Origin: Flavipsychrobacter sp.
GTDB lineage: Bacteria > Bacteroidota > Bacteroidia > Chitinophagales > Chitinophagaceae
DNA: 64,000 nt
NCBI GenBank assembly: GCA_016786615.1
Contig: JAEUVX010000002.1
Span: 1 to 64,000, forward strand
Direction: 5' to 3'
The notes under the pieces are model-generated. The model was not told the origin of the DNA and did no database searches. It was given only the letters and a program-made list of their open reading frames with translations. Positions 14,791 to 57,198 of the stretch are shown piece by piece. The stretch's first letter is position 1. Every line of letters starts with the position of its first letter. A program made the translations under genes and the position numbers.

Positions 14791-14851
14791 TCGCAGTATT
14801 CGCTTTACAACAAAAATAACAGTTAAATCCAGTATGTAATCATAAAATTAC

Positions 14852-14888
14852 AAAAATGCGTAAGCCCCTTTAATAAGGGGCTTACGCA
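14852..14888 (-). terminator. Strong rho-independent terminator after the M43 metalloprotease gene
   Basis: There is a perfect 14-bp stem with a 4-nt loop, GC-rich in the middle. On the minus strand a run of T follows. It sits 25 nt beyond the metalloprotease stop codon. Confidence 0.9.
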
Positions 14889-14912
14889 AAATATTCAGGA
14901 ACTGAAATATGA

Positions 14913-20400: not shown

Positions 20401-23400
20401 TGCCCGGTCCTGTCCATGAATAAGTAACACCGGGTACAGATGTTGCAAACAGATTAATATTATACCCTTCGCAAATAGGGCTGTTATTGGTTGCACTCAC
20501 TGTAGGAGGGGTCGGGTCTGTAAGTGTAACCGGCCCGACAATATTTGAAATACAGTTATTAATTGTAGCCGTTATGTTTGCATACACACCAGCAGTTAAA
20601 TTACTTATTGTAACACGACCTGTAGCAGAAGCAGTCAGGGTCAATATAGCCTGTGGTGTACTGTTTTTAGTATAGCTGATTGTATAAGTGTTACCGGATA
20701 CCAGACCGGTTATTACTATATAACCCTCATTACCCAAACATGTCGTCGGATCTGCGGAATCGGCAAGTGCAATTACAGGTGGTGTCGGGTCAACAAGGAA
20801 GTACGGACCAACACTGTTGGAGATACAATTGTTTATGGTAACCGTTATATTATTGTAGATACCCGCCGACAACCCTGTTATCACTACTCTGCCAAAAGAA
20901 TTTGCAGTAAGGTTTAGTGTTGGTTGCGAAACAGAACCTTTGGTATAGTTAACAGCATAGGTGCTACCATTTATCAACCCTGAAATAGTAATAGTGCCTT
21001 CTGTACCAAGACAAGTAGTAGGATTTGTAAACGTCGCTGTAATCAAAGGTGGAGTCGGATCTACCAGTGTTATTGGCACAATCGTATCTGAAGTACAAAT
21101 ATTCAGTGTTGCTGTAATTTGAGCATAAACACCAGCAGACAAACCAGACATCAGAATACTACCATTAGCTGCAGCGGTAAGCGATAACGCAATTTGAGCA
21201 ACACCATTTTTAGTATAATTGATAGTGTACGTGGTATTAGGCTTCATCCCTTTCAAAGTAATAGACCCTTCATTACCACTACATGTAATAGGATGCGTAT
21301 AAGAGAAACTATCAATTGAAGGCACATGGTATATCACTACAGTTGTAGTATCAGGTATAGACGGACAACCATTTACATACGCTGTAACTATATAATCACC
21401 ATTGTTTGGTGTATCAATACTGGTAATTGAAGGATTTTGTAGTGTAGCCGTATAACTAAGCGGGCCAGTCCAAACATAATTTGCATTCGTGACATTAGAT
21501 GCTGTCAATAACAATGTACTTCCTGCACACAGTGGGCCATTATTTCCGGCAACCGGAGTAGCTGGTGTAGGCCTTACTAATACAGTTGTTGTTGCCGGGA
21601 GTGACGGGCAATTATTTTTAGTAGCAACTGCTGTGTACAACCCTGAATGTGAAGGCTGACCATTTAATATAATCGGGCTTTGCAATGTTGATGTATATCC
21701 ACCCGGGCCTGTCCATGACCATGCAACACCTAATGAATCACTTACTGCAAACAGCTTAATAGTATCCCCCTGACAAATTGGTGTATTATTATTTACAGAT
21801 ATAACAGGTGCGCTCGGATGATTAAGACCTATAACTGCTGGTATTGTGTCAGAAGTACAATTATTAAGCATTGCATTAATCCCTGAATACAAACCCATAC
21901 CAAGCCCGCCGATTACCACACTGCCATTGCCCGCGGAGGTTAATGATACTGTAGGTTGTACAGCACCGTTCTTTTTATAATTGATAGTATAAGTAGTGTT
22001 TGGCTTCATGCCCTTGAGGGTGATGCTGCCATCTGTACCCAAGCAAGTAGTAGGATGCGAAAATGCATAGCTATCTATTGACGGCACATGATAAATGATA
22101 GCCAATGTGGTATCCGGTAATGACACACAACCATTGAGCGTTACCGTTACTATATAATTACCGCTGTTTGGCGTATCTGCATTTACAATGCTCGGGTTCT
22201 GCAATACAGAAGTAAAGCTTAACGGACCTGTCCAACTATAATTGCCTCCAACTAGTGTATCGGAAGTAAGCAATAGCGTGCTACCGGTACAAATCGGGCT
22301 ATTATTATTAGCTACAGGAGTAGCAGGTGTTGGTTTTACTAAAACTACAGTCGTGTCAGGTATTGATGTACAATTATTTTTAGTAGCTGTTAAGATATAG
22401 TTGCCCGAATTTGTCGGGATAGCATTTACTATTACAGGATTTTGCTGAGCAGATGAAAAACTTAACGGACCAGTCCAAGACCATACTACCCCAGAGGAAT
22501 CGCTTGTTGCAAATAGCTTAACAGTATCTCCCTGACAAATGGGTGTATTATTTGTAGCATTTATTACCGGGGCTAATGGGTCTGATAAAATCAATGGAGC
22601 AGTAGTATCCGAGGTACATCCGTTTAATGCTGCAGTAATCCTTGAATAAACGCCTGCACTTAAATTAGACATTACTACCTTACCATTTGCGTCGGCAGTT
22701 ATGAATAATACTGTTTGTGCGACTCCATTTTTTCTATGGTTGACAGAATATGAAGTATTAGGCTTCAGCCCCCATAATGTAATACTACCATTTGTTGCAG
22801 CACAAGCATTCGGGTGAATAATAGTTGCACTATCTATGTGCGGCACGTGATACACGGTTACTAATACAGTGTCTGGAATCGACAGGCAACCATTGATGTG
22901 AGCTGTAACAATATAATTACCGGTATGAGGTGTATCTACATTAGCTATAGACGGATTTTGTATCAATGAAACAAAACTCAATGGCCCGAACCAGGAATAT
23001 GTTGCACCCGGAACTGTACTTGCTGTTAATAACAATGTATTACCCGTACACAACGGGCTATTGCTACTTGCAATAGGTGTTCCCGGTCTTGGTTTAACCA
23101 ATACCTGAACTGTATCTTGCAGTGACGTACAATTGTTTTTAGTTGCCGTTACACTGTAAATACCTGAATTGGCAGGTGTGGCTCCTGCAATAAATGGATT
23201 TTGAGATGTGGACGAAAAAGACGCCGGACCAGTCCACTGCCAAGTAACCCCGACAGAATCTGAAGTAGCAAACAATTTCAACGTATCGCCTTCGCATATC
23301 GGTGTATTACTACTGGCAACAGGCGATGGAGCAACAGGATTATTCAATACAACAGTAGCAGCATTATCCGAGGTACATCCTAATGATGTGATATTAATTT

Positions 23401-26365
23401 CGGAATATATACCTGCAGTCAATGGCGATATTGTAATGGTACCTGTACTACCGGAGTTTGCAGTTACCGCAGTCTGCCAGATATTATTCTTCTTATAATT
23501 AACTGTGTAATTAATATTTGTTGTAAGCCCTATTAAGGTAATGCTGCCATTTGTACCGCCGCAAGTTGTAGGGTTTACAAATGTTGTACCGCCAATAACC
23601 GGTTTAGGATTGATAACAACTGTAGTTGTTGGTGTGGTTGTAGAATTACAGCCATTAGATGTTGTAAAAACGGAATAAACGCCTGCATTTACCAATTGCA
23701 CATTAGAGATACCCGGGTTCTGCAACATAGATGAAAAACCATTAGGCCCCGACCATGTGTAAGTTGCACCTGCTATTGTAGTTGCCGATAAGTTTAACGA
23801 ACTGCCTGTACATAGTGGCCCGTTATTCGATAACACGGGGGCTGCAGGCCTTGCATTAACAACTACTGATACTGTATCGGGTAAAGACAGACAACTATTC
23901 TTTGTTGCAGTCAGTATATAATTACCCGACATTGCAGTTGTAGCATTAAGCCTTACAGGATTCTGAACAGATGATGTATAGCCGGAAGGCCCGCTCCATG
24001 CCCAGGTAACACCAGAAGAATCGCTGGCACCAAATAGTTTCAATGTATCACCTTCACAAACAGGGCTGTTACTTGTTGCATTCACAATCGGAGCAGCAGG
24101 ATTAAGCAGTAAAATCGGAGCAATAGTATCAGACCTGCACGTAGATGTACGAAGGGTAATCTGCGAATATGTACCTGCACCTAACCCGCCAAAAACTACA
24201 ACACCTGAAGAAGATGAGGTAACAGAAACCGGCGTTTGCACAACTGCATTCTTTTCATACTCGAGTGTGTAACCTGTACTATTAGACAATCCGTTTAAAG
24301 TAATAGTACCATTTGTGGCACCACATGCGGTAGGATGTGTATAACTATAAGAACTGATTACAGGCTTGAGATTAACAACAACATTTGTATTAGACGGTAA
24401 AGAATTACAACCATCAAACGTAGATACTACAGTATATGTACCTGCATTCAATAATTGCACATTCGTAATACTCGGATTTTGAGTAGATGAAGTAAAACTA
24501 TTAGGGCCAGTCCATGCGTATGTGGCACCCGCAGTAGAACTTGCTGTCAGGTTTAATGTTGAACCTGTACATAACGGGCCATTATTAGCCACCACCGGCA
24601 AAGTGGGCCTTGGCTTTATAAACACATTAGTAGTATCCGGCAATGACGCGCATCCGCTTTTTGTAGATGTTAGTATATAGTTGCCGGAATTGGCAGCAGG
24701 TGCATTTGCCAGTAATGGATTTTGCAATGTTGAATTAAAACCATTCGGGCCAGTCCACCTATATCCATAACCCGAAAGTGCTGTCGTTGCAAACAGCTTC
24801 AAAGTATCTCCCTCACAAATTGGAGTCAGCCCGGTTGCAGAGAGTGTATCATTCTGGATGTTCACTACATTAATAGTAACCGTATCACTATTCTTACTGC
24901 AATATTGTGTTGAGCTATTGACGACCTGATATTGTGTATTTATCGTTGGCTTTGCTACGGGTTGCTTACATGATGTACAACTCAAAGATGTAATAGGGGA
25001 ACCACCCGGTAATACTGACCATGTAAAACTAGAACCACCTACAGCAAGAAGCATTACCGAATCTCTGTAACATATAGTAGTGTCTTTTATGATATCCGTA
25101 ATCGGCCATATATAAATTGGCAGTACAAAAGTTTGGGCTACTATCACACCGGGACTAACACAGGTTGAATCTTTAGCAGTAACAGAAAAAATCCTGAGCC
25201 CGGTATCCAATGTACCCGGCACCCATGAGAAACACCCGCGGACTGAGTCTGTTCTTTGCCCGACGTACGAAACTGTAGAGCCGGGCGTTGCTGAAGCTGA
25301 GTTATCTGATGCTACTATAATTGCGGCAGTGTCTGTTGATTTTAAATCGAAACAAAAACCTAATGGTACACCCGCACATGCCTCTACTCGTCCGTTTACA
25401 TAAGTTCCCCCGGTTATGGTACTTGACACAGTATTCACAATAGGAGCAGTAACACTACAGTTTATTACCTGCACCTGAATATCACGCATAACAGTCCCTA
25501 TCTGCACACCATTTCTGTATTCTTTAATTCGCACAGTCAGTGTACTAGCACCTGTAAGTGTAGGTGTAAATGTCAATTGGCCTGTAGCTACATTTATACC
25601 GAAGCTGTTATTAGTTTGAAGAGGGTTGGTAGTTAAATTATATGTTGGTGAACCTGTTGCGAATGTGAGGTTTGATGTAGTTGGCGGACAACTGCCATTT
25701 GTTTGTTGCGGCATTACCAACTCAAACGATAATGAATCTGAATTCGGATCAACCCCACCGTTGTTATATGTATAGGGTTGATTAATACAAATTGACGGTA
25801 CTGGCTTAACCGAAAAATATGGTGAGGAGTTACCCTGTGCTACAAGGTTATTCAATGTCGCTTCAGCATAAAATACTGTACTTGCAGCATTTACAAGATT
25901 AATACTCGTATTTCTGTTAGAAATGGCAACACTAAACCTCCAGAAATTACACCTTGATGGTAATGTTACTGTATTAGCATACCACCATTCCCTGTAACCG
26001 GGAACTGCAGAAGTAGTGTTTGTACATTTTGTACCTGTACCTGGACAACCCAATGTTACAGGAGAACCATTCAATGTACTATCGGGTAATTTTGTAATTT
26101 TTGTGAGTGTTATGGTACCGCCCTGACCATTACAGGTATTTCTATAACACAGGGGGATATTCGCAGGCTCTGCCGCTCCTGAACAATCCCTGTAAAATTT
26201 AAAAAACACCCTGTAAGTAGAATCGCTAACCCATTGATATGCAATCTCGCCACCGGCAGCATGTGTTGCGTATGACTTATTCGGGGTGTATAGGAATAGC
26301 ATCGTAGCAATAATAACTACGATCCTATGGAGTACGTTTTTGCTTGTACACAACATGTTCGGCAA
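17486..26365 (-). CDS. Giant cell-surface repeat protein with gliding-type (T9SS type B) C-terminal domain
   Basis: This is a 2959-residue exported protein. A hydrophobic signal region (about 10-33) ends near SYATHAAGGE. The first 450 residues form a non-repeated head. Then two module types alternate. About 14 Ig-like modules carry W-x-W-x-GP and a conserved CxSLPDT-like strand. About 9 other modules are built on NPTTCLGxxGSITLxGL. The last 85 residues (SMPDAFSPNGDGRNDKF, then WGEKVFQTN and GWDGYY) are the gliding motility-associated C-terminal signal used as a type B T9SS signal. It is expected to be displayed on the cell surface as an adhesin-like fibre, similar in idea to SprB but with different repeats. 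Neighbouring repeats are very alike, so recombination or assembly error is possible. Either ATG at residue 1 or 4 could be the start. Confidence 0.9.
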   Translation of the reverse strand: MPNMLCTSKNVLHRIVVIIATMLFLYTPNKSYATHAAGGEIAYQWVSDSTYRVFFKFYRDCSGAAEPANIPLCYRNTCNGQGGTITLTKITKLPDSTLNGSPVTLGCPGTGTKCTNTTSAVPGYREWWYANTVTLPSRCNFWRFSVAISNRNTSINLVNAASTVFYAEATLNNLVAQGNSSPYFSVKPVPSICINQPYTYNNGGVDPNSDSLSFELVMPQQTNGSCPPTTSNLTFATGSPTYNLTTNPLQTNNSFGINVATGQLTFTPTLTGASTLTVRIKEYRNGVQIGTVMRDIQVQVINCSVTAPIVNTVSSTITGGTYVNGRVEACAGVPLGFCFDLKSTDTAAIIVASDNSASATPGSTVSYVGQRTDSVRGCFSWVPGTLDTGLRIFSVTAKDSTCVSPGVIVAQTFVLPIYIWPITDIIKDTTICYRDSVMLLAVGGSSFTWSVLPGGSPITSLSCTSCKQPVAKPTINTQYQVVNSSTQYCSKNSDTVTINVVNIQNDTLSATGLTPICEGDTLKLFATTALSGYGYRWTGPNGFNSTLQNPLLANAPAANSGNYILTSTKSGCASLPDTTNVFIKPRPTLPVVANNGPLCTGSTLNLTASSTAGATYAWTGPNSFTSSTQNPSITNVQLLNAGTYTVVSTFDGCNSLPSNTNVVVNLKPVISSYSYTHPTACGATNGTITLNGLSNSTGYTLEYEKNAVVQTPVSVTSSSSGVVVFGGLGAGTYSQITLRTSTCRSDTIAPILLLNPAAPIVNATSNSPVCEGDTLKLFGASDSSGVTWAWSGPSGYTSSVQNPVRLNATTAMSGNYILTATKNSCLSLPDTVSVVVNARPAAPVLSNNGPLCTGSSLNLSATTIAGATYTWSGPNGFSSMLQNPGISNVQLVNAGVYSVFTTSNGCNSTTTPTTTVVINPKPVIGGTTFVNPTTCGGTNGSITLIGLTTNINYTVNYKKNNIWQTAVTANSGSTGTITISPLTAGIYSEINITSLGCTSDNAATVVLNNPVAPSPVASSNTPICEGDTLKLFATSDSVGVTWQWTGPASFSSTSQNPFIAGATPANSGIYSVTATKNNCTSLQDTVQVLVKPRPGTPIASSNSPLCTGNTLLLTASTVPGATYSWFGPLSFVSLIQNPSIANVDTPHTGNYIVTAHINGCLSIPDTVLVTVYHVPHIDSATIIHPNACAATNGSITLWGLKPNTSYSVNHRKNGVAQTVLFITADANGKVVMSNLSAGVYSRITAALNGCTSDTTAPLILSDPLAPVINATNNTPICQGDTVKLFATSDSSGVVWSWTGPLSFSSAQQNPVIVNAIPTNSGNYILTATKNNCTSIPDTTVVLVKPTPATPVANNNSPICTGSTLLLTSDTLVGGNYSWTGPLSFTSVLQNPSIVNADTPNSGNYIVTVTLNGCVSLPDTTLAIIYHVPSIDSYAFSHPTTCLGTDGSITLKGMKPNTTYTINYKKNGAVQPTVSLTSAGNGSVVIGGLGMGLYSGINAMLNNCTSDTIPAVIGLNHPSAPVISVNNNTPICQGDTIKLFAVSDSLGVAWSWTGPGGYTSTLQSPIILNGQPSHSGLYTAVATKNNCPSLPATTTVLVRPTPATPVAGNNGPLCAGSTLLLTASNVTNANYVWTGPLSYTATLQNPSITSIDTPNNGDYIVTAYVNGCPSIPDTTTVVIYHVPSIDSFSYTHPITCSGNEGSITLKGMKPNTTYTINYTKNGVAQIALSLTAAANGSILMSGLSAGVYAQITATLNICTSDTIVPITLVDPTPPLITATFTNPTTCLGTEGTITISGLINGSTYAVNYTKGSVSQPTLNLTANSFGRVVITGLSAGIYNNITVTINNCISNSVGPYFLVDPTPPVIALADSADPTTCLGNEGYIVITGLVSGNTYTISYTKNSTPQAILTLTASATGRVTISNLTAGVYANITATINNCISNIVGPVTLTDPTPPTVSATNNSPICEGYNINLFATSVPGVTYSWTGPGSYSSSAQNPVITGAVPANSGNYIVTATLNNCISAPDTTSVIVHPTPTTPVARNNGPICTGNTLLLTTDTVLNATYSWTGPGGFTNNVQNPVRTNAQPSYSGIYSVTVTVNGCVSLAGSTNVTVYALPAPVISNFAVSNPTTCLGSNGSIIISGLIANSPFTITYLKNGVPQPNVSTTSSIIGSVVLAGLTAGVYSDIRVVAANGCSSDPLPDVTLTDPIPPTISLYGKSNPTTCLGSNGSITLSGLTATLIYNIDYSKNNIVQPTIMMVANLSGRIVITSLTAGTYDNIRVTINNCVSNFIGPVTLNDPNPPTVTAGNSTPICEGGVINLYGSSDSSGVTWSWVGPASFTSTVQNPVITGALPSQAGTYYLTATKNNCVSLPASTNVVVYPTPPTPVVTSNSPVCEGSTLNLYASAIIGANYAWTGPNSFTGTGQYQAILGSAPIHSGVYSVVATVNGCSSLPGSLAVYVNVIPMPPQVGALLINYCQDAAASPLSAVGNNLRWYTTPFGGVGSSTAPTPPTNIPGSTTWYVSQTANGCESARVPIKVFINAKPPLPTVVSPVKYCQFEPTAELQASGRNLKWYTTPVGGTMSYTVPIPSSAVAGTYYWYVSQTGTNGCEGNRDTIEVRVLPEVKVNIITDKDTLCAYDSLNVSENTLRTEPSMYYWSFDGGTIAAGDSSGPYTIKWTSDGRKLIKLKVTTDICNGYDSVYIHVKPVPEVHFGLENPLCYGEETIVMPKKVDNCVYEWNWAGATVVGKMKNEGKIIKWNSLGRKIVSLKLTSANGCTSPLFYDTTYIYENPIAKIDWVSKTEICSGDTIKLSAVGFENHLYEWRSNNAYYNAEYNKADAIVTGSGFVKVNVNNIYGCNAADSVFIDADACCDISMPDAFSPNGDGRNDKFRIITPGHHFIKNFIVVNRWGEKVFQTNREEDGWDGYYKGVPQDIGTYHYYIKYICSDGKNIEKKGQVVLVR

Positions 26366-27714: not shown

Positions 27715-27721
27715 CGATTCG

Positions 27722-27780
27722 TGCCCCGGGCGGGACTTGAACCCGCACACGCATTGCTGCATACAGGATTTTAAGTCCTG
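27722..27780 (-). tRNA. 3' part of tRNA-Leu(UAA), truncated; left attachment site (attL)
   Basis: On the minus strand the sequence folds into an anticodon arm (CAGGA / TCCTG stem, loop CTTAAAA with anticodon TAA), a long variable arm as in class II tRNAs, a T arm (GCGGG / CCCGC, loop TTCAAGT), the 3' acceptor strand CCGGGGC and discriminator A, with no encoded CCA. Where the D arm and 5' acceptor strand should be, unrelated sequence begins. Integration within the anticodon arm explains this: the 5' half and a replacement 3' half should lie at the far end of the element. That copy is not in this window. Confidence 0.85.
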
Positions 27781-27917: not shown

Positions 27918-29120
27918 ATGGCGAACGTAAAAATAATACTTCGCAAAGAAGTTAAGAAAGACGGTACTTCCCCACTTGCTATTCGTATTACGAAGGATAG
28001 AAAATCTTCTTATATTTATCTCGAATATAGCATCAAGGAATCTGATTGGGATAAAGAGAACCAACGTGTGCGAAAATCTCACGTAAATTCTGCACGGCTA
28101 AACAACTATCTCATAAAAAAAAGAGCGGAAGCTGTAGACAGTTCCATCGATGTTGAATCAACAAAAAAAACAGCCAGTGCAAAAAACATTAGGCAGAAAA
28201 TAAAGCCTACAACAGGGGGAACTGTTTTTGAACAGGCAGATTTGTATATCCGACGGCTGGAAGAAGATGGAAAATATAATCAGTACAGTGCTGGAAAACC
28301 GAGAGTAAAGCATCTAAAGGCATATCTTAAAACTGATATTGCGTTCCAGGATTTCACCATTCAGATGATTGAACGGTTCAAGGCATGGTTAAAATCTACA
28401 TATAAAATGTCGGAAAGAACGGCAGTTAACCACTTGGTCATTCTGCGGTCTATATTCAGCCAGGCAATAAAGGAGGGCGCTTGTGAAGAAAAATACTACC
28501 CTTTCGGCAAAGGAAAAATTAAAATCAAGTTTCCTGACTCAACAAAAATAGGACTCACAATTGAAGACATCGCTAACCTTGAAGCTGTCAAATTAGAACA
28601 ACCGGCGAACCATGCACGTAATCTTTGGCTGTTGTCGTTTTATTTTGCCGGGATGCGGATTTCCGATGTCTTGCTTCTCAAATGGTCTGACTTTCAAGAT
28701 GGGCGGCTGTATTATACAATGGGTAAGAATGATAAAGGTGGCTCATTAAAAATTCCTGACAAGGCAATTGCCATTCTCAAACAATATGAGCATTTAAAAG
28801 AAAAGAAAACCGATTTGGTTTTTCCTGATTTGAAAGGTATTAATCTTCAAAATAGGTTTGAAACACAAAAACGCATTGCTAGTCGAACTAATACCATCGA
28901 TCAACTCTTACGTGATGATGTTTCTGTTGCTGCTAAAGTAGATAAGAAATTGACCATGCATATTGCCCGGCATACCTTCGGGAATCTGTCAGGAGATAAG
29001 ATACCTATTCAAATGCTTCAAAAGTTATATCGCCACTCGTCTATTACAACTACCATCGGCTACCAGGCAAACTTCATTCATAAGGATGTTGATGATGCGT
29101 TGAATAGCGTCGTGGGGTGA
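27918..29120 (+). CDS. Tyrosine recombinase (element integrase)
   Basis: The 400-residue protein has the layout of Bacteroidota element integrases: an arm-binding N-terminal domain (about 1-60, VKIILRKEVKKDGTSPLAIR), a SAM-like core-binding domain (about 85-175) and a catalytic domain. The catalytic residues read as R247 (in AGMRISD), H348-x-x-R351 (HIARH), H373 (YRHSS) and nucleophile Y382 (TTIGYQ). It lies right next to the truncated tRNA-Leu and faces away from it, the usual place for the enzyme that made the insertion. It should catalyse integration and, with a helper, excision. Its stop is 2 nt from the end of the convergent ATPase gene. Confidence 0.93.
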   Translation: MANVKIILRKEVKKDGTSPLAIRITKDRKSSYIYLEYSIKESDWDKENQRVRKSHVNSARLNNYLIKKRAEAVDSSIDVESTKKTASAKNIRQKIKPTTGGTVFEQADLYIRRLEEDGKYNQYSAGKPRVKHLKAYLKTDIAFQDFTIQMIERFKAWLKSTYKMSERTAVNHLVILRSIFSQAIKEGACEEKYYPFGKGKIKIKFPDSTKIGLTIEDIANLEAVKLEQPANHARNLWLLSFYFAGMRISDVLLLKWSDFQDGRLYYTMGKNDKGGSLKIPDKAIAILKQYEHLKEKKTDLVFPDLKGINLQNRFETQKRIASRTNTIDQLLRDDVSVAAKVDKKLTMHIARHTFGNLSGDKIPIQMLQKLYRHSSITTTIGYQANFIHKDVDDALNSVVG

Positions 29121-29122
29121 CA

Positions 29123-30850
29123 CTATACTTTTAAGTGTTCTTTCAAGTCTTTTACTTTATCGATAGCATCCTTCAACTCCGCCCTATGTAAAGGGTTATC
29201 AGAGTGGTGCGAGGCGGGGTTCAATATTCGGTCTAAAATCTCGTCGATGTCTTCAAGGACTTTCTCCTTAATTAGGTTTTTGCCAGACATTTCAACAAAA
29301 AGGTTAAGCATATATCTCTTATATGAGTTGAGCCGTGCAATTTCTCCGGGTAATAATGTCGCATCACTTTCAAAATCTGTTGTGATTTTTCTTACTTTTT
29401 CGATATCCCAATCTTTAATAAAGGTTCTTTTAAATTTAGCGTAGTTCTCGGCCACAACCAGGTTATAAGCCTCGCTTATTTTTTGTTTAAGGCTAACAAA
29501 GCCTCTCGCAGTATTCTTCATTTCAGGATCGACAAAAGAAGCCAGAATAGCTTCGGCCTCCAACCTGAGATTGTTACCAGCGTTTTCAAACTCATTTTGT
29601 TCAAAATTCTTTATGGCTGTTTGTAACGGTGTAAGATTTTCCTGGACGCTGGGGGCTTTGTTCTGATTTTCGTCCCTGTGGAAATCAAAATACACCCAAT
29701 CTTCATCATTTGTATTGCGTCGAATTAGATTAAAAAAGCCCTTATCATGCGTTAATATAAATTTCTGAAACTGGTCAAAAAACCGTAAGTCTTCTTTCTC
29801 CTCTTTGTTCAAAAAGAGCCGAACGATATCCATTCGATTTGATAAATCTAAGCTAATCAACATATCGTCAAGAACCAGAATTTTGAACTTTGATTCAGCA
29901 AGCGGTCGAGTTCTAAGGGCTCCGATACGCACCCCAATCGCAATGCGTGTAAGTTGGGCTTCATTCAAGAAAGATTGGACGCGTTCAAGCCTGTGCCAGT
30001 TTCCAACTTTGTTTTCGTCATACAACTCGACATCAAGTTTGATTTGCAACTGATCATGTCTATATCCCTGTTTTTGCACGTCCCATATTCTCGCTCTCAC
30101 AAGTTCGAAAGTGAACTTTTTTGCAAACTTTAGAGAAATTCGTACGACATCCTTACCGTCAAAAAAGTGATCCTTTAAAAATGCGTTAGCGTTGGTTGTT
30201 ATCTCATCCAACAAATTTTGAATTTTATCATTTAGATTACCGAGCTGCGTTTCATAATTACTGCGCCTTCCAGAAGATACAGCGTATCCCCTCGGAGTTT
30301 TGGGAATATCGGTGGTAGGCTTAACTATAATATCATCGAGCCAATTCTGCGTACCGTCTGTCAAGAACGGGAAAATATCGCGTTCAAAAACAGGCCATAA
30401 ATTGACCTCCTCCTTATGTGATGCGCGGTAAAAATTATGCAGTAGCTTATAATTGATGAAATCACTGGATAGATTCAACTCCTGAATAAGAGTGTCTGTT
30501 GATTTATTTGTATTGATGGTACCATGTGAGATTGTATAGACGTCCTCCTTACTTGTTTCTTCATCAATGGCAATCAATTTCAAAAATGAATCGTCTGTTT
30601 CCGGTAGAAATACATTTCTTAGCGTCTGATGGGTGGCCGTGTCAGAAGTAACATAGTTTTTAAAGTATTTTTGTATTTCATCATTCTTCTTTATACTACT
30701 TTGAAGCAGTGTATAAAGTGCCCAAAAGAACGAAGATTTTCCCGAACCGTTGTTCCCGTAAACTAAAACGTTCTTCCTATTTATTGGAAACACTTCTTCT
30801 TTCTGAAATGCTTTGAAATTCTGTATTCTAATTTCTTTTATGCGCTTCAT
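29123..30850 (-). CDS. RecF/SMC-like AAA ATPase, third gene of a defence-like operon
   Basis: The 575-residue protein begins RIKEIRIQNFKAFQKEEVF, the typical start of RecF/OLD/SMC-type ATPases. It has Walker A GNNGSGKSS (32-40) and a distal Walker B with ILVLDDMLISLD near residue 330, separated by a helical insert. No TOPRIM or HNH nuclease domain is evident. The C-terminus contains RILNPASHHSDNPLHRAEL, a His-rich motif seen in ATPases of restriction and abortive-infection loci. Its ATG overlaps the stop of the methylase gene (ATGA), which indicates translational coupling. In this setting it may sense DNA ends or phage intermediates; that is inference. It is the last gene of the operon. Confidence 0.8.
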   Translation of the reverse strand: MKRIKEIRIQNFKAFQKEEVFPINRKNVLVYGNNGSGKSSFFWALYTLLQSSIKKNDEIQKYFKNYVTSDTATHQTLRNVFLPETDDSFLKLIAIDEETSKEDVYTISHGTINTNKSTDTLIQELNLSSDFINYKLLHNFYRASHKEEVNLWPVFERDIFPFLTDGTQNWLDDIIVKPTTDIPKTPRGYAVSSGRRSNYETQLGNLNDKIQNLLDEITTNANAFLKDHFFDGKDVVRISLKFAKKFTFELVRARIWDVQKQGYRHDQLQIKLDVELYDENKVGNWHRLERVQSFLNEAQLTRIAIGVRIGALRTRPLAESKFKILVLDDMLISLDLSNRMDIVRLFLNKEEKEDLRFFDQFQKFILTHDKGFFNLIRRNTNDEDWVYFDFHRDENQNKAPSVQENLTPLQTAIKNFEQNEFENAGNNLRLEAEAILASFVDPEMKNTARGFVSLKQKISEAYNLVVAENYAKFKRTFIKDWDIEKVRKITTDFESDATLLPGEIARLNSYKRYMLNLFVEMSGKNLIKEKVLEDIDEILDRILNPASHHSDNPLHRAELKDAIDKVKDLKEHLKV

Positions 30851-33800
30851 ATCGTTTCAAGAATTGTTTTTAGTATTTCAGGGCTTCTGACAGAAAATAG
30901 TTTAATGCGGTCGCGAACTTTATTGTCTGGGCTTGACCATTTCGCATGAAGATAATTAGCAAGTAAACCCAAATTGTCAAAATCTTCGCTGGAAAGACTC
31001 CTTTGGGTGTTTTCGACGTCAGATTTAACAAATTCAAAAATGTTTATTTCCTCTTCGAACATGTGCTCGCCAAAGTAAAGCTCAAAAAACAAACCGTTAG
31101 CAACTTCATCAAAGAGCTGGAACTTAGAAGAACCTGCAGTCGCTGACAAAAGACCGTGAAAAATTCTAAAGAGGTCCTCATACTCAGGTCCAGGCTTTTT
31201 TATAAACGTGCTTTTTAGATTGGGAGCAGAGTACAGCAAATAACCACCTGCCATTCGTAGTCCATCAAAAAAGCAGCTAAATACAAAATGAAATAGTTTC
31301 GAATTAACCCAGACTGCTACATACTCCGGGCGAAAGCCCTTTTTAAACGAGTGAATACAATTTGTGTTGATTGAAGCATATTCGCCATTCTTGTCATAAA
31401 AGGCTTCAAGCTTTAATGCAATTTTAGCAACTATAATTTTAGGACTACGGTAGAGCTTAAGTCGTTGCTGGGAAACGCGCTTTATGTCTTCGCGCAAATA
31501 TGGCATCAGATACGTTTCGCCTTTGTCGGTTAGCTTTTCCTTGCCCCATAGCGGAAGATAGCTGTCAATCGTGCCCGTATTGACTAGTTTAAGTCCTGAT
31601 TCTTCATTTATCAGCTTGTGGTAGTCATCTGCCTCCTTAGCTGTGGAGGTTGCATTTATTACGCCGCAATCTGATAAGGGCACAGCCTGGGTGAGCATCC
31701 TTTTTACAATGCTGATTTTGCTATTTAGAAGGAAGCCCCATATTTTTCCAGGCAATAGTTCTAAATCTGCAACATCGTTAAACCAAGAATCGACCACCGA
31801 GAACTTTTTGTCGAACTTCTTAACCTCTATAAAATCGTTCAACGCATCCCTACGGGCAATAAGAGTGACAATCGGGTAAGTTGATGCAGCCTCAAAAACC
31901 TGTACGGAAGAAAAATCAGAGATTGATCTGATAGAATATTCACGATGAATGAATTCTCTGAGCGCTTCACCGTAGCTTGCGGACAAAAACCTATTAGGCG
32001 TAATGTAACAAAGAGATCCGTCACGGCTGAGAGCTTTAAGACCAAATTCAATGAAAAGAATATAGATATCAATAGTACCTTTTGCAGACTCGTACCCTTC
32101 TTTTAGCTTTTCATATTTATCACCAAGCTTCTTTTTTAATTCATTGGCATTAATATATGGTGGGTTACCGATGACGATATCGAAACCTTCAGTTACATCA
32201 AACATCCACTCACCATCGAAGAACACAGAGGAGGCGTTTTGATCGTACGGGTCCCAGCCAGATAGCTTTTCCGCTGTGTCAGTAGCCCAACCTGCCTTCT
32301 GGAGTTCAACCGCTATGCCTGCACGCAGCTCCTGGTCAAGCTGTCGATACTTGAGCTTGGTTTCTTTGCTTTTGGCACTAAATAGCTTATGTCGAACAGC
32401 TTTTAGCTTAGCCTCTAGCACCTTTACTTCGTCAGTTTCATATAAGCTTAACTGAACATCGGGCTTTTCTATCCCTATAAGTGTATTCGCTGCAACAAAT
32501 TTGGTCTCAAGGTTCGGTAATGGACGGATACCAAAGTTCGGCTTATTGCTGTCAACCTTCTGTTCCACTACCAAGGAAATAAAAAACCGCAGCTTTGAAA
32601 TTTGCGTCGCTATTGGCTGAATATCGACTCCGTATATGCAGTTCTCTATTAAAAACAATTTACGTGCATAGTCAGGATCATTAATACTCTGGTCAAATGC
32701 CTCATTGATTTCGAGCAGTCGTTCCGTACGAGCATCCTTGTTTTCTATTTCGAACGCAGCTTTCGACTCTTGTTCAGCTTTCTTTAGTTGTACGTCTTTC
32801 CAAATTTTATTATCCGGGTCGAGTTTTTGCAAAACATGAACCATTTTCTGCAAAGCCCCCATAGGAAAGGCGCCCGAGCCACAAGCTGGATCAAGAATTG
32901 TACATTCACTCAAAGCCTTTATGATTTCATGTTTTATCTCGCGAGTGTCGCCGAACGGTACCCGCTTATCAAATGAAGTCAAAACGCGCAAATCGTTCTC
33001 TAAATTATTCGCATCGAGGCCGGTTTGCGAAAGCCGCTTTTTAAGAAAAGCGATAAGGCTTTCATCAACCATGTAGTTAACAATCTCACGCGGGGTATAA
33101 TAAGACCCCGTTTGTTTGCGAGCAGTACTTTTGGTTTCAGGGTTGTAACTCGCTAGCAGATTTTCAAATACCTTTCCCAAAAGTTCGGGGTCTAAGGCAA
33201 CATCTTCTTCAATTGGCGTGTTCTCGGTTATCGTAAACTTATAGGACTTAAGAATGTTAATAAGCCCTTTAACTGCGGCATTCTTGTACTTTTTATCTGC
33301 AATCCCGACGATGTCGCTCAGGTCTGCATGTTCCTCTAGTCCAAAGAACAGATAATCAGGGACAATTAGCTGCTCACCCTTTATCATTTGGTCCGAGAAG
33401 CCATCAATGTAAACATTGTTGAATTTGTCGTCCAAACATTCAAAGAGGCCACCATTCAAGAACGGCACAGTACTGTTTAATTTCTCCAGGAATTTCTCTG
33501 GCTGTTTAAAGTACTGCCTGTAGCGCATGAGATAGTCAATTCCTCTATGCGTCCCGTACCCTTCACCGCGGAAATCACGTTTCCGCTTGTCCAGATTGTC
33601 ACTCTCAATTGGACAGTTCAAGGTGGCAAAAAACAAATTCTGCAATATTGCTTTATAGTAGACACTGTGTTTGTTCGAATCCTTAAACATCCCTTCGTCA
33701 TGAAAAGGAGATATTTCTTTAAGAATATCTTTCTGCAATGTGTCTAACTCAAACAGGTCTTCAGGAATTAATTTCTTTTCTTTAATAAACCAAACAAATA

Positions 33801-34587
33801 GCAAACGTGTCAGCAATCGAATAACATTAGTCGCATTGTGTTCGTGTACTAAGTCGTCCAGTTTCATCTTTTTTACAAAAGCATCATGCGATGTTGGAGC
33901 ACCTGGAAAACTAACATTTTGAATTGCCCAAAAGTACCATGACGATAGCTCTTGATAGAACTTCTTATTCAGGACATTGACACTAAAGACTTGCTGCCAG
34001 TATTCGTATAGTTTTGAAAACGAATTAATCTTCAAGCTCCCGGAAGTTGGAATCTTTAATCCAGACAAAATCCTTTCGTGACCGGAATGTGGCTGATCGA
34101 CATCAACATCTCTGAGCAATGTGACCTTTCCAGCCTTTTCACCCTCCCTCCATTCTTGCCTATACTTCAGACGTTCTGTATTCGCAAAAGCTATGTAGTG
34201 TTCATACTTAAAAACCACGATAACCGGCGTATAATAAAATTCGCGATTAAATGATCTTGCTATTTCTGCAAGTTGAGCGCGTGTCGGAAGCAGCCCATTC
34301 GCACGTGCCTTTAGGGTAATGCCAAAAATCAGTATGCCGTCGTAGTCTGATTTAATCTGTTCAATATGAAGGCTTGTTCCACCACTAAAGGCGCTGTCAT
34401 CCACCATCCCGACAAAGTACACGTCGTCAATTAATGCAAAGGCATCGCTTTCCTTATAGGTATCTTTAAGTATTTCCTGAACAGTAGTAGAGTCTTGGGT
34501 AACGTAATTGACAGGCACGTTTAGATCGCTAAAGAACATTTTTAGCGCTTCAACAAAATTGCTCTGCTTAAAAGCCGAAAGTCTCAT
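30847..34587 (-). CDS. Large Eco57I-like adenine-specific DNA methylase (PglX/DrmMI/type IIG-like)
   Basis: This is a 1246-residue protein. The SAM-binding motif DPACGSGAFPMG begins at residue 566 and the catalytic motif NPPY at 808-811, in the order of N6-adenine methylases of the Eco57I, PglX and DrmMI type. Residues 1-180 form a separate alpha/beta region (FALIDDVYFVGMVDD, then TPVIVVFKYEHYIAF) that could be a nuclease-like or recognition module; I cannot identify catalytic residues. A C-terminal part (about 960-1150) would recognise the target sequence. It is the middle gene, 3 nt after the helicase and overlapping the ATPase. Expected role: host DNA marking, possibly combined with restriction of unmodified DNA. 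Confidence 0.88.
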   Translation of the reverse strand: MRLSAFKQSNFVEALKMFFSDLNVPVNYVTQDSTTVQEILKDTYKESDAFALIDDVYFVGMVDDSAFSGGTSLHIEQIKSDYDGILIFGITLKARANGLLPTRAQLAEIARSFNREFYYTPVIVVFKYEHYIAFANTERLKYRQEWREGEKAGKVTLLRDVDVDQPHSGHERILSGLKIPTSGSLKINSFSKLYEYWQQVFSVNVLNKKFYQELSSWYFWAIQNVSFPGAPTSHDAFVKKMKLDDLVHEHNATNVIRLLTRLLFVWFIKEKKLIPEDLFELDTLQKDILKEISPFHDEGMFKDSNKHSVYYKAILQNLFFATLNCPIESDNLDKRKRDFRGEGYGTHRGIDYLMRYRQYFKQPEKFLEKLNSTVPFLNGGLFECLDDKFNNVYIDGFSDQMIKGEQLIVPDYLFFGLEEHADLSDIVGIADKKYKNAAVKGLINILKSYKFTITENTPIEEDVALDPELLGKVFENLLASYNPETKSTARKQTGSYYTPREIVNYMVDESLIAFLKKRLSQTGLDANNLENDLRVLTSFDKRVPFGDTREIKHEIIKALSECTILDPACGSGAFPMGALQKMVHVLQKLDPDNKIWKDVQLKKAEQESKAAFEIENKDARTERLLEINEAFDQSINDPDYARKLFLIENCIYGVDIQPIATQISKLRFFISLVVEQKVDSNKPNFGIRPLPNLETKFVAANTLIGIEKPDVQLSLYETDEVKVLEAKLKAVRHKLFSAKSKETKLKYRQLDQELRAGIAVELQKAGWATDTAEKLSGWDPYDQNASSVFFDGEWMFDVTEGFDIVIGNPPYINANELKKKLGDKYEKLKEGYESAKGTIDIYILFIEFGLKALSRDGSLCYITPNRFLSASYGEALREFIHREYSIRSISDFSSVQVFEAASTYPIVTLIARRDALNDFIEVKKFDKKFSVVDSWFNDVADLELLPGKIWGFLLNSKISIVKRMLTQAVPLSDCGVINATSTAKEADDYHKLINEESGLKLVNTGTIDSYLPLWGKEKLTDKGETYLMPYLREDIKRVSQQRLKLYRSPKIIVAKIALKLEAFYDKNGEYASINTNCIHSFKKGFRPEYVAVWVNSKLFHFVFSCFFDGLRMAGGYLLYSAPNLKSTFIKKPGPEYEDLFRIFHGLLSATAGSSKFQLFDEVANGLFFELYFGEHMFEEEINIFEFVKSDVENTQRSLSSEDFDNLGLLANYLHAKWSSPDNKVRDRIKLFSVRSPEILKTILETI

Positions 34588-34590
34588 ATT

Positions 34591-37500
34591 CTAAACCGTT
34601 ACTAAAAACCAAGTTATTAAATCAAAGTTGCCAATTTGAAATTTCTCTTCAACAGACTTATTCTCACGTATTCGAGAAACCGCACCTTTGTCACCCTTTC
34701 TAAGTTTTGACAGGATGTCTTTGGCTTCAAAGCCCATTGTCTTTTTCGTTGAGCCATCCTCAAGCGCATGCTCTTCTGATATTTGGCGATTAAGCCATCC
34801 CTGAATAGCAGAGGCAAGTTTCTGTATAGCAATTGGGTCTCCCTTATCAATCTCATCAGGAATAAAGCGCTGCTCACCCTTATGGTTCGCCAAGGCATCT
34901 AATACGTCTTTTTGATTAAGCAATACCTGTTTGCCATTGGTATCTATATACACTAAATCGAAGATTTGATACTTGTGATCCTTGGCTTTTGGTGGCTTTG
35001 TTGGATAGCCAAGTAAAGCAATAAGCCCGTTCGCGCTGCATAATTCATTACTTGTTTGAAAACCCGTATAAACGGCGTTAGGCATTTTCAAATATTTGTC
35101 TTTGTCCCGGTTAAGTTCGTCCATTAAATCCTGGCGGTACTGCTCCAAAGACAAGTTGTCAAATCCAAATGTCTCTTCACCTTCTAAATCGTCAAATGTT
35201 AACTGCATTTGCTCCAGCATGCGGTTCTTCATCCGTTGGTCTAGCGATTCATCACGAACCATTTCCTGGAATGTATCAGAAAAATCATGGTCAACCTCGG
35301 CACCGGCAAGTTTCATCGCTGCCATTCGATGTTCAATCCGGCCTTGAAGGTTCAGATAAGAATTGATATTGTTTGAGGGCCAAAAATTGATTCCGAATAT
35401 TTGCTTGTTAGGGCTGCCAAGTCGATCAATTCGCCCCATACGTTGGATTATTCGGACCGGGTTCCAATGAATATCGTAGTTAATCACCATATCCGCATCC
35501 TGTAGATTCTGCCCTTCACTCAAGGCATCAGTAGCTATGAGTATGTCAAATGGATTTTGCAATTTTTCTAACACCTTTGGATGCTTCTCTGCAATCCATT
35601 CCAGCCATTCCTGATAGCCATCCAAGCCCTTGTTACTAGTCTTAAAATCCCACTCACACTCCCTGAATAGTTTTGTGTAAGGAGCAAAACGTTCGAGAAT
35701 AGGCTCAAAGTTGTTCGTCTCCTCTTTTGAATCACTCGTTAGTGAACCTGAACCAGATACCATCGCTAACTTATCGAACCCTCTCGATTTTAACTGAGTG
35801 AACAAATATTGAGCGGTGTCACGGTAGACTGTAAAAATTACGACCTTCGGATTATTATTGTTAGCCCCAAGGTTTCTTTTTTTATTAATTTCTTTAATTA
35901 AAGTCTGAACCTTATCGTCCTCAGAACGTAGATTTCCAGGCCTGATAAGTTCTGCGTTTATTTTGCTTTCGAATTTCTGCAGATTGACAAAAATATTGTC
36001 CAATGCGTCCAAGTCTCTTTTAAGATCCCTTTTAAAAATATCCAGATTGCCTGCGGCGTCTATTTCCAAAAGTTGAATTTTTCGCTTTTTGCCTAGTGTT
36101 AAATCAACCAAATCATCCTGAAAATCGTCGTCCTCAAATAGGTCTGAATTCTCGTTTGTTGAAAGACTAGTTGGTCGTCCATCCTGATAGACTTTGATTT
36201 TATCAAGGGCATCTTGATGGTGGTCTTTAATCTTCTTAACAGTCGCATAGAATGAATACCAAGAAGACTCCAACCTCTTTACCATTAAGATGTAAATCAT
36301 TTTTACAAGAAAGCGGTCCCTTTGCCGTTCATCATGTAAGACATCGTGATCGGCCAGACTTTCATCATTCAAGTAAAAGGATGGCTGATAAGCTGATAAC
36401 ATCGGAGGGAAATGGTCGAATAATTCTTCGAACGATTCAAAGTTTCCCAATTGGCTCGGTGTAACAAAAAGATTTACTGGTTTTGACTTGACTGGAAATG
36501 AAAGATTAGATTGCTCTCCCTCAATCATTTTCCGGGTCCTTGCAACAATCAGTGAGTCTGTCAGCGTGAAAAAATTCGCAGGTAATTTTTTGATGAAGTC
36601 GCCGATTTGAGGTGAAGGCTGTTCACGCCAGTCGTTGAATGCCTTTTGTGCAGTTCTAAAGGAATAATCAATGTTTTTAACACCTAAAGTTTCATCAAAA
36701 GCTTTAGCGTCGCCCTTTGCAATCAATTTGAACTGATTGCGAATGTCGTTAAGTGAATTGTTTATTGGTGTAGCAGAAAGTAAGAGCACTTTTACGTCGT
36801 CGTTCTTCTTCAGAATTTCATCGAGCAAGAACTTGTACCGGTTCGACTTGTCGTTTCTCAGGTTATGGCTCTCATCTATCACTACAAGCTTTGGCTTATA
36901 GTTTGTAAATGATTTATCCGCCCGGTCAAAATACTTTTCGAGCCGCTCATTATTCATATCGGTATGAAAACGGAGAAAAAAATCGAATTGATCCTTTTCG
37001 AATTTTGAACCGTGGTGCTTTAGGTAGCGTCTCCAATTATGCTCCAACTTCTTAGGACACAAAAGAATGATTTCGCGACCTTGTAACTGAAAGAACTTAA
37101 TTACGGCTAGAGCACTCCACGTCTTGCCAAGGCCAACGGCGTCTGCCAGTATCGCGCCATTATACTTCTGGAGCATACGGATAAGGCTCAATACACCTTT
37201 CTTTTGAAACTCATACAGAGAATTGTAGACAACCGAATTTTCTAACCGGCCTATTTGACGATTGAACTCAGGATCGTTTTCGGCATCCAACAGTTGCCCA
37301 CCAAACAGTTCAAACAACACTTTGTAATAGAGCTCACGAGGGGTATACTTAACGAATATCCGTTCTATTTCCTCAATCAGATATTGCTTAAAGTCAATTT
37401 TTCGCTTTGTACCATCGTTACTGACGATGGTCTTTTCTTTATGGGCCTGTGGTCGTCGCCATAAATTCTCAAACCAGTCTACAAGCTCTTTATATTGGCT

Positions 37501-37977
37501 GTTGTTTCCCGTTTCAGCAATATTGAGTTCAACGTTACTTGTTGATTTCAGTCCAATGCCTGCTTCGGTCAAATTCGAACTACCGGTGACGAAGTACTTA
37601 TTTCTGTCGTCATTTTTTTCCGGAGTGAATAAGTAACATTTAGCATGACAGAAGTTTGGTTCGAGAGTTTTAGCTGTAACTTTATCTTGTTTCAAAAAAC
37701 GCACGGCCTCCTGTGAAAGGTGGCTTAACTTCAATGCAGCTTCAATGCTGATATTTTCGTTCAGTAAATCTAAAGGACGGCTTTCTTCGCTGTCGATATT
37801 AACTATATCACCTAATACAAGCCTGATTTCTGATATCTTGTCATTTACCTCTTTTGATAGCCAGGCAAGAGCACCTACCGTAAAATACCCCGTAACAATA
37901 TCTATTTTCCCGGCCTCGGTGTAAGAAGAAATCCATTCGTGTACTTTAAGATTATCATTTTCATTATCTATTAACAT
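34591..37977 (-). CDS. SNF2-family helicase with N-terminal phospholipase-D-like domain
   Basis: The 1128-residue protein fuses two units. Residues 1-175 are PLD-like: H111-x-K113 and GSSN at 132-135 form one HKD-type half-site, as in PLD nucleases that act as dimers. Residues 250-920 are a SNF2-type ATPase with Walker A DAVGLGKTWS (K285), DESH (368-371), SATPINN, and a second RecA lobe with SEGQNLQDADMVINYD and QRMGRIDRLG. The C-terminal 200 residues are uncharacterised. The combination matches a DrmD-like translocase carrying its own DrmC-like PLD domain. It is the first gene of the operon, preceded by a TATATTTG promoter element. Confidence 0.88.
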   Translation of the reverse strand: MLIDNENDNLKVHEWISSYTEAGKIDIVTGYFTVGALAWLSKEVNDKISEIRLVLGDIVNIDSEESRPLDLLNENISIEAALKLSHLSQEAVRFLKQDKVTAKTLEPNFCHAKCYLFTPEKNDDRNKYFVTGSSNLTEAGIGLKSTSNVELNIAETGNNSQYKELVDWFENLWRRPQAHKEKTIVSNDGTKRKIDFKQYLIEEIERIFVKYTPRELYYKVLFELFGGQLLDAENDPEFNRQIGRLENSVVYNSLYEFQKKGVLSLIRMLQKYNGAILADAVGLGKTWSALAVIKFFQLQGREIILLCPKKLEHNWRRYLKHHGSKFEKDQFDFFLRFHTDMNNERLEKYFDRADKSFTNYKPKLVVIDESHNLRNDKSNRYKFLLDEILKKNDDVKVLLLSATPINNSLNDIRNQFKLIAKGDAKAFDETLGVKNIDYSFRTAQKAFNDWREQPSPQIGDFIKKLPANFFTLTDSLIVARTRKMIEGEQSNLSFPVKSKPVNLFVTPSQLGNFESFEELFDHFPPMLSAYQPSFYLNDESLADHDVLHDERQRDRFLVKMIYILMVKRLESSWYSFYATVKKIKDHHQDALDKIKVYQDGRPTSLSTNENSDLFEDDDFQDDLVDLTLGKKRKIQLLEIDAAGNLDIFKRDLKRDLDALDNIFVNLQKFESKINAELIRPGNLRSEDDKVQTLIKEINKKRNLGANNNNPKVVIFTVYRDTAQYLFTQLKSRGFDKLAMVSGSGSLTSDSKEETNNFEPILERFAPYTKLFRECEWDFKTSNKGLDGYQEWLEWIAEKHPKVLEKLQNPFDILIATDALSEGQNLQDADMVINYDIHWNPVRIIQRMGRIDRLGSPNKQIFGINFWPSNNINSYLNLQGRIEHRMAAMKLAGAEVDHDFSDTFQEMVRDESLDQRMKNRMLEQMQLTFDDLEGEETFGFDNLSLEQYRQDLMDELNRDKDKYLKMPNAVYTGFQTSNELCSANGLIALLGYPTKPPKAKDHKYQIFDLVYIDTNGKQVLLNQKDVLDALANHKGEQRFIPDEIDKGDPIAIQKLASAIQGWLNRQISEEHALEDGSTKKTMGFEAKDILSKLRKGDKGAVSRIRENKSVEEKFQIGNFDLITWFLVTV

Positions 37978-38487: not shown

Positions 38488-39870
38488 ATGAAAATAAGCA
38501 ACGAAATCATAAAACAGGAGTTAGAAGCTATTGAGAACGCACTGCTCCAATTAAGGGACGGGGCAACGATAGATGATATTCGGTCTGCTTCAGGACTTGA
38601 AATAGAGCTACGCACCTTGCAAAGACGGTTAGCGGCGCTTGAAGAGAAGGGAATAATTACCAGTACGGGTAAAACAAAGAAAAAGCTATACTTCCATTCC
38701 CAAATAAGAAAACAAGTCGAAGTTCACGAGGTTAAATCTGATTTACTGCCCTTGTCAAAAAAGAGCAGAGAAATCCAAGCCGTAGTTTCGCAACCGATAC
38801 AAAAACGTAAACCAGTAGGTTATAACCGGGATTTTCTTGTGCAATACCGTCCCAATCGGGATAGTTATCTCACAAAAAAAGAATTGGACAATCTTGCGAA
38901 AATCGGCACGACCAACAACCCTGACCAGCCTGCCGGAACGTATGCCAAGGAAATACTAAACAGGTTACTGATTGATCTGTCCTGGAACTCCAGCCGTCTT
39001 GAGGGCAATACATACTCGTTGCTCGACACACAAAGGCTCATATCCTTCGGCGAGTCTGCGAATGACAAATCTGCCACCGAGGCACAAATGATATTAAACC
39101 ACAAGGACGCTATCGAATTCCTTGTGCAATCTGATGAGAATATCGGATTTAATCGTTACACGATTTTAAACCTCCATGCGCTGCTATCAAACAACCTGCT
39201 GCCGGACCCGGCTGCCTCAGGGCGACTGCGCACTCATGGCGTAGGTATTCATCAATCCGTGTACGAGCCGCTGGCCGTTCCGCAGCAAATCGAAGAGTTT
39301 TTTGAACTCATTCTTGATAAAGCCTCACAGATAGAAGACCCGTTTGAGCAGGCATTTTTTGTTATGGTGCAACTGCCCTACCTGCAACCCTTCGATGATG
39401 TGAACAAGCGCGTATCAAGGCTTGCGGCAAATATCTCCTTCAACCGTCACAACCTTGCTCCGCTTTCATTTATTGACGTGCCCGGCGATTTATACATTCA
39501 GGGTATGATTGGCGTTTACGAGTTAGGGAGGATTGATTTATTAAAGGACGTATTTCTGTGGGCTTATGAACGTTCAGCGGCACGCTATGCTGCTGTACGC
39601 CAGTCTCTTGGCGAACCCGACCCGTTCCGGCTTAAATACAGGGAACAAATGCGCAGCCTCATAGCTCATATAGTGTCCGGGGGATTATCGCCTAAAGAAG
39701 CCATAGTCGAAATCAAAGAAGATACTCAACAAATACCAATAAATGATCAGAGCCAATTTATGGAAGCCGTTGAAACAGAACTGTTGGCATTGCATGAGGG
39801 GAATTTTGCCAGATACCGTATTACACCAGCCGAATTCAAGAAATGGTCTGCCATTTGGCAGGCCAAGTAG
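38488..39870 (+). CDS. Fic-domain protein with N-terminal winged helix and degenerate active-site motif
   Basis: In this 460-residue protein, residues 1-75 resemble a winged-helix DNA-binding domain (IDDIRSASGLEIELRTLQRRL). A Fic_N-like segment (RNRDSYLTKKELDN, then SWNSSRLEGNTYSL) precedes the Fic core. The S/TxxxEG-like inhibitory motif S-SRLEGN is present. The catalytic motif HPFxxGNGR reads QPFDDVNKR at 300-308: His is Gln and both Gly are changed, while Phe, Asn and Arg remain. Classical AMP transfer needs that His, so the enzyme may be inactive or do other chemistry. DVNKR-type variants exist as a recurring subgroup. Together with the upstream site array, a mainly regulatory role is plausible. 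Confidence 0.85.
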   Translation: MKISNEIIKQELEAIENALLQLRDGATIDDIRSASGLEIELRTLQRRLAALEEKGIITSTGKTKKKLYFHSQIRKQVEVHEVKSDLLPLSKKSREIQAVVSQPIQKRKPVGYNRDFLVQYRPNRDSYLTKKELDNLAKIGTTNNPDQPAGTYAKEILNRLLIDLSWNSSRLEGNTYSLLDTQRLISFGESANDKSATEAQMILNHKDAIEFLVQSDENIGFNRYTILNLHALLSNNLLPDPAASGRLRTHGVGIHQSVYEPLAVPQQIEEFFELILDKASQIEDPFEQAFFVMVQLPYLQPFDDVNKRVSRLAANISFNRHNLAPLSFIDVPGDLYIQGMIGVYELGRIDLLKDVFLWAYERSAARYAAVRQSLGEPDPFRLKYREQMRSLIAHIVSGGLSPKEAIVEIKEDTQQIPINDQSQFMEAVETELLALHEGNFARYRITPAEFKKWSAIWQAK

Positions 39871-51965: not shown

Positions 51966-51981
51966 CGTCAAAACTAAAAAT

Positions 51982-56009: not shown

Positions 56010-56017
56010 CTCATTAT

Positions 56018-56353: not shown

Positions 56354-56412
56354 TTTCCCTCCCTGAAAGATATATTCTATCATACATTTTTTAACGCTTA
56401 AAATCAAGGTTT

Positions 56413-56811: not shown

Positions 56812-56840
56812 GCAATATTTGCAACTGTTCAGGAAGTCAT

Positions 56841-57131: not shown

Positions 57132-57198
57132 AATTATCCTTTCTGTTGGTTGAAAGTGGTGAGGAAGAAGGCGGGGCTATCGCCCCGCCCGGATATAT

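Follow-up and report, generated by a model that had tools for sequence, protein, structure and literature searches.

An operon with a possible back-up RNase

A 64,000-nucleotide stretch of Flavipsychrobacter sp. DNA (contig JAEUVX010000002.1, positions 1 to 64,000; here called the window) contains a three-gene operon that encodes a helicase, a DNA methylase and an ATP-binding cassette (ABC) ATPase. We read it as a restriction–modification (RM) core with an attached back-up effector, the ABC ATPase with a HEPN-type RNase domain, and place the probability of this reading as a whole at roughly 0.55. Within it, the RM-like core is rated higher and the release of the effector lower.

The helicase and methylase would constitute an ATP-dependent RM pair. 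The methylase may place N6-methyladenine marks on host DNA at a site that its TaqI-like domain recognises, and the PLD-SNF2 helicase would translocate on unmarked invading DNA, which its PLD domain would cut. The third protein would act as the back-up effector, with an SMC/RecF-type ABC head controlling the C-terminal RNase domain. The core proteins would probably hold it inactive, and inhibition or overload of the core would set it free; it might then cut RNA, perhaps tRNA, and halt growth, like PrrC beside its type I enzyme. The computation itself shows the gene set, its motifs, the linkage, separate exchange of the ATPase and a weak similarity to HEPN; all of the activities, the silencing and the trigger are ones we infer. 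That HEPN RNases back up restriction systems has been proposed in the literature (PMC3710099, PMC12839542), and back-up RNases have also been put forward for BREX-related Type-2 systems (PMC12839542).

Architecture of the operon

All three genes are on the complementary strand. The first (34591–37977, −) encodes a PLD (HKD)–SNF2 helicase of 1128 amino acids (aa), a predicted nuclease-translocase. It has the Pfam domains PLDc_2, SNF2-rel_dom and Helicase_C and intact motifs H111-x-K113, GSSN (132–135), GLGKT and DESH; the best PADLOC model is the one-protein model C3a139 ‘HKD+Snf2’ (4.7e-78). The second gene (30847–34587, −) encodes an Eco57I/type IIG-like N6-adenine methylase of 1246 aa with a TaqI-like specificity domain, assigned by PADLOC and by Pfam (Eco57I, N6_Mtase and TaqI_C), in which DPACGSG (566) and NPPY (808) are intact. 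The third (29123–30850, −) encodes a RecF/SMC/Rad50-like ABC ATPase of 575 aa with a HEPN-like C-terminus; the head matches SMC_N, AAA_15 and AAA_23 and retains GNNGSGKS (32–39) and DDMLISLD (328–335). Three nucleotides (34588–34590) separate the helicase and methylase genes, and the methylase and ATPase open reading frames (ORFs) overlap by four (30847–30850).

A preliminary description of this DNA, made from the sequence alone, had proposed a defence-type operon of unusual layout with three coupled genes, a PLD unit fused to the helicase and an SMC-like ATPase added as the third gene. The ORF coordinates, the presence of PLDc_2 and SNF2 in one ORF together with the HxK…GSxN motif, and the Pfam domains of the ATPase support this outline.

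The catalytic motifs are also found in relatives. Every helicase ORF that reaches 950 aa (40) has HxK…GSxN and every methylase ORF that reaches 1000 aa (42) has NPP[YFW]; a strict pattern of the SAM motif fits only 21 of these 42. Judged by such motifs, the first two genes appear to form an RM-like pair, in which a predicted nuclease-translocase accompanies an N6-methylase with both catalytic and specificity domains. An NCBIfam scan of the three proteins returned no model at its cut-off for any of them.

The C-terminal region of the ATPase

The helical C-terminal region of the ATPase (residues 381–575; 29123–29710, −), whose RNase-like character the preliminary description overlooked, is predicted from alignments and profile comparison to be a HEPN-type RNase domain. 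It contains R429-x3-E433 and N544-x2-S547-H548. All 24 homologues whose C-terminus is complete have R-x3-E and N-x3-H, and Ser directly precedes His in 22 of them, the other two having Cys or Ala. The Arg, Glu and His resemble the triad of the RloC/PrrC tRNases; in RloC, replacing any one of the three by Ala eliminated tRNA cleavage (PMC2610378). Six residues, P, R, E, N, S and H, are the only ones kept in every one of 16 C-terminal pieces. DUF4145, a HEPN family in Pfam, gives subthreshold matches to three of the 16 pieces (best E 1.9e-4), and one piece matches AAA_13 (0.0021) somewhere along its length. A weak profile alignment of the C-terminus to DUF4145 extends over the whole length (100 columns); its score of 19.4 is reached by none of 199 shuffles, and the accepted HEPN pair DUF4145 and AAA_13 scores 18.3 in the same set-up.

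Several observations weigh against this assignment. Twenty of the 24 proteins counted had been cut at their NxxSH match, and the motif count in those 20 is therefore partly a matter of choice; four further homologues were checked beyond these, and two of them are without the Ser. The DUF4145 profile match has a P of 0.014, and hhalign assigns it a probability of just 3%; comparison with the C-terminal profile of AAA_13 (PrrC/RloC) gives no match (P 0.31; the score is equalled or bettered in 41 of 200 shuffles). No HEPN model is matched by the C-terminal piece of the window itself, and NCBIfam, scanned with the 16 pieces, yields no HEPN family. The ATPases of the window and of two other loci, L034 and L054, have an insertion that places E and H 114 residues apart, versus 56–64 in the other 17, and the Glu-His spacing in RloC is shorter, at 36–52 residues (PMC2610378). 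The Arg of the canonical HEPN Rx4-6H motif is not conserved in the 16 pieces (the window has R541), while the His is invariant; a HEPN family with the H but without the R is on record (PMC3710099).

One further feature of the protein lies in its head. Residues 294–298 (window 29957–29971) read FLNEA, which is invariant in 13 homologues and stands at the expected position of the ABC signature. The plasmid copy L148 has FFNEA in its place.

Alternatively, the ATPase might sense DNA or form loops as an SMC/RecF-like subunit of a restriction complex, with the helical C-terminus being an interaction or nucleic-acid-binding domain only. A role of this type has been proposed for the CxC ABC ATPase with DndE (PMC10853773); we consider the account unlikely though not negligible. 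The six residues that alone are invariant resemble an active site more than a binding tail, and nuclease genes stand beside the helicase–methylase pair in some loci that have no ATPase. In addition, the ATPase is missing in 27 of the 40 stretches found via the methylase, some of which are cut.

The three genes as a unit

Evidence that the genes belong together comes from L054, a locus of a Bacteroidetes metagenome-assembled genome. A single 8850-bp block with 89.3% identity corresponds to window positions 29128–37977, i.e. to the three genes only; no other part of the 64-kb window matches the 23.7-kb L054 locus in blastn at E ≤ 1e-5. Protein identities are 94% for the helicase, 93% for the methylase and 90% for the ATPase. 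Because the homology covers exactly three genes and then stops, the trio can be considered a unit.

The methylase was searched for at E ≤ 1e-60 across 395 genomes of the same phylum and was found in 22, that of the window included. It was also present in 20 loci of a genome collection, including Alphaproteobacteria, Ignavibacteriaceae, Nitrospinae, Thermodesulfovibrionia and Cloacimonadota. Fifty-four stretches were examined, and 53 have a methylase match (44 found via the methylase and nine via the ATPase). The helicase is also present in 42 of these 53, although it is not always adjacent (L005, L042). Eight of the 11 stretches without it end near the methylase because of a contig end (L052, L055, L057, L067, L069, L089, L091 and L093), which leaves three longer ones (L041, L046 and L053). 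The pairing of helicase and methylase exceeds chance.

The ATPase gene lies downstream of the methylase in 13 of the 40 methylase-found stretches (L034–L073, with L069 a contig end). An independent search with an ATPase profile gave matches in 14 of the 395 genomes, and in 13 of the 14 the gene is again downstream of the methylase, in L090 with a 101-aa ORF in between. The helicase is on the same stretch in ten of these 13, the other three being ended by contig ends; the fourteenth genome (L097) has an isolated remnant. All three ATPase matches on plasmids follow a methylase, which is whole in L148 and only a C-terminal piece in L147 and L149 (profile positions 929–1108 and 935–1187 of 1192). 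The sole match on a viral contig, L146, begins at the contig end. Conserved co-occurrence, on which the preliminary description had made its proposal depend, is thus seen both for helicase with methylase and for methylase with ATPase. Some ATPase copies are damaged (L091 is broken by a stop, L097 is the remnant and L098 is split); such decay would fit a gene that is toxic or costly to keep.

It is highly improbable that three defence genes came to lie side by side by chance in an island hot spot and function separately. Defence genes do cluster in islands, and in L054 a type IIG-like methylase gene (2729–5824) lies upstream of the cassette with a 208-aa ORF in between. However, the gene order is kept in Bacteroidota and Alphaproteobacteria loci with gaps or overlaps mostly below about 130 nt (the exceptions among 17 loci are L060 with 328 nt, L090 with 624 nt and L094 with 1308 nt), and the boundary of the L054 homology falls exactly at the three genes.

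A core and an exchangeable slot

Distance matrices were compared over 18 complete trios, with 999 permutations each. Between helicase and methylase r is 0.966, and between the ATPase and these two it is 0.747 and 0.795; in each case none of the 999 permutations reaches the value. L034 is discordant with respect to the window: identity is 61% for the ATPase, 32% for the helicase and 41% for the methylase. It should be pointed out, as a further point against an RM core with an attached ATPase, that no ATPase is seen in two close relatives of the core from Planktothrix, L003 (helicase 67%) and L073 (47%). The core therefore does not need the ATPase, and these loci together with the L034 identities indicate that the ATPase moves partly on its own.

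Other genes can stand beside the pair. In L061, a full RloC-type AAA_13 gene (13213–15426; 7.1e-160, PDC-S06 2.1e-241) occupies the place of the ATPase, 14 nt past the methylase. Schlafen AlbA_2 is found beside the pair in L002, OLD-TOPRIM with UvrD (Gabija-like) in L068, YhcG PDDEXK in L044 and L045, and AAA_14/DUF4143, with no nuclease match, in L042. These neighbours are ten proteins picked by eye from nine mapped loci, and hence a frequency of slot effectors cannot be given. A nuclease match is absent in three of the ten: a DUF4062/HATPase protein in L073, a 304-aa protein without family in L002 and a secretion-tail protein in L043.

The back-up position is best read as exchangeable between operons, with the separate exchange of the ATPase coming from the computed distances. 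A broader and more tentative proposal, to which we give somewhat less than even odds, is that the pair is a restriction chassis guarding a plug-in slot for suicide nucleases. The new ABC-HEPN RNase family would be the commonest plug-in identified, located almost only behind the methylase in the matches found, and the same core might hold RloC, Schlafen, Gabija-like or PDDEXK effectors. This would amount to a PrrC-like guard built from other parts.

Comparison with known systems

A check against PADLOC-DB 2023 showed no system with models matching all three genes. The preliminary description had allowed that the layout might already have been named, and this is correct for part of it. A 2018 paper reported a PLD-SNF2 protein with a type IIG-like methylase, orf33–orf34 of Lactococcus plasmid pLd8, as a putative RM system (PMC6098607). 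In the accessible text of that paper, orf35 is assigned to the operon without domains being given, and no ABC-HEPN ATPase is mentioned. A Lactococcus plasmid pair among our loci (L004), which may or may not be the pLd8 pair, is remote from that of the window (methylase 26%). Relative to the literature searched, the third gene and the exchangeable slot on the helicase–methylase core are new, as no description of them was found there.

An SNF2 helicase and a large adenine methylase are shared with class 1 DISARM, and the preliminary description had noted a resemblance to drmD–drmMI. The resemblance proves remote: the DrmD (3.2e-32) and DrmMI (4.5e-18) models match, but much less well than C3a139 and REase_MTase_IIG (8.5e-64). 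The DUF1998/MZB protein of class 1 DISARM is DrmB. PF09369 (MZB)/DUF1998 has no match in the genome of the window, which is 91% complete, whereas eight of 14 control genomes are positive; relatives were not searched for DISARM genes. The window's operon differs also in having the PLD unit fused to the helicase. Absence of an MZB/DUF1998 gene from the genome argues that the operon is not DISARM, and a reduced or rearranged class 1 DISARM is very doubtful, even though the same comparison was drawn for the Lactococcus pair, whose organisation was said to differ (PMC6098607). As to ARMADA, there is no MZB match in the genome; the YprA helicase itself was not searched for.

It is also very unlikely that the operon derives from a BREX-related Type-2 (DUF499) system by loss of DUF499 and DUF3780 and acquisition of a different ATPase: an HKD-Snf2 effector helicase and an N6-methylase are common to both (PMC12839542), but DUF499 has no match in the window's genome, is absent from 19 of the 23 ATPase-bearing genomes and lies outside the operon stretches in the other four, the two methylases fetched from such systems are DUF1156_MTase proteins that do not match the operon methylase profile at 1e-5, and their helicases match PLD_Helicase at 0 and 1.2e-228 as against 3.7e-16 here. 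DUF3780 (PF12635) likewise has no match in the window's genome and occurs in two of 296 genomes overall. Lack of DUF499 and the different methylase family thus set the operon apart.

Two further systems include an ABC ATPase. PrrC and RloC (AAA_13) share with the third protein an ABC ATPase with a C-terminal R-x3-E…H, and PrrC adjoins a restriction enzyme (PMC2610378, PMC3710099). The full-length window ATPase has no AAA_13 match at E ≤ 0.1, and the fetched AAA_13 proteins have LS[ED]GE where it has FLNEA. PbeABCD, with its CxC ABC ATPase, also combines an HKD–helicase fusion with an ABC ATPase (PMC10853773). Its DndE, small protein and zinc-hook ATPase, and the cytosine methylases of some loci, have no counterpart by domains in the three-gene operon.

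The N-terminal region of the methylase

Methylase residues 1–230 (33898–34587, −) form a conserved alpha/beta domain according to alignment and the predicted structure (pLDDT 83.6). Twelve residues are invariant across 21 homologues: L92, R103, R111, N114, P121, R139, D160, H170, I173, L174, F190 and W197. The suggestion that this domain could be a nuclease finds no support: no nuclease motif can be recognised in it, the 21 aligned N-termini lack a shared set of invariant acidic and Lys residues such as PD-(D/E)XK nucleases have, and fold searches gave no clear match.

The mobile island

The operon is carried by an island, and its position as cargo next to the integrase, noted in the preliminary description, holds. 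A tyrosine integrase gene (27918–29120, +), which is a carrier outside the proposed mechanism, converges on the operon, with its end and the ATPase stop 2 nt apart. The left attachment site is a 60-nt duplicate of the 3′ portion of tRNA-Leu(TAA) at 27721–27780 (−). The intact tRNA-Leu(TAA) is at contig positions 99104–99190 (L145 15104–15190), so that the island between the tRNA copies is ~71 kb. Two genomes of the same genus (L136, L137) are without the ~71-kb insert: their tRNA is bordered on one side by the left chromosomal flank and on the other by the right flank (from 99104). In four more (L138–L141) only the right flank accompanies the tRNA, and L135 has a tRNA copy, the left flank and the end of a related integrase. 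From the attachment copies and the insert-free sites in relatives, the operon is the first cargo by the integrase of a tRNA-Leu island. Genes for TraG-like, TrwC relaxase, ArdC anti-restriction and SSB proteins (50421–60941) are mobile-element genes on the island.

Two neighbouring genes may be mentioned. A Fic protein is encoded divergently from the operon at 38488–39870 (+; PADLOC PDC-S04 1.2e-15, SoFic 5.6e-12), with a Fic match in none of 44 other loci compared; Fic/Doc toxins have been reported with RloC-like genes (PMC3710099). Left of the island, a repeat-rich ORF of 2959 aa (17486–26365, −) has a C-terminus that looks gliding/secretion-like by eye.

Significance

If the reading of an RM core with an ABC-HEPN back-up is correct, the coupling of restriction to a translation-stopping RNase, best known from PrrC and its type I enzyme, would recur on another restriction core. 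Its reach would extend to Bacteroidota and Alphaproteobacteria at the least, the RNase being a module that can be exchanged, and the third proteins would be a new family of candidate RNases. The operon would also offer a further testable case of a restriction complex that silences and releases a suicide nuclease. Should the prediction hold, it would be a restriction system that carries its own means of suicide as a back-up.
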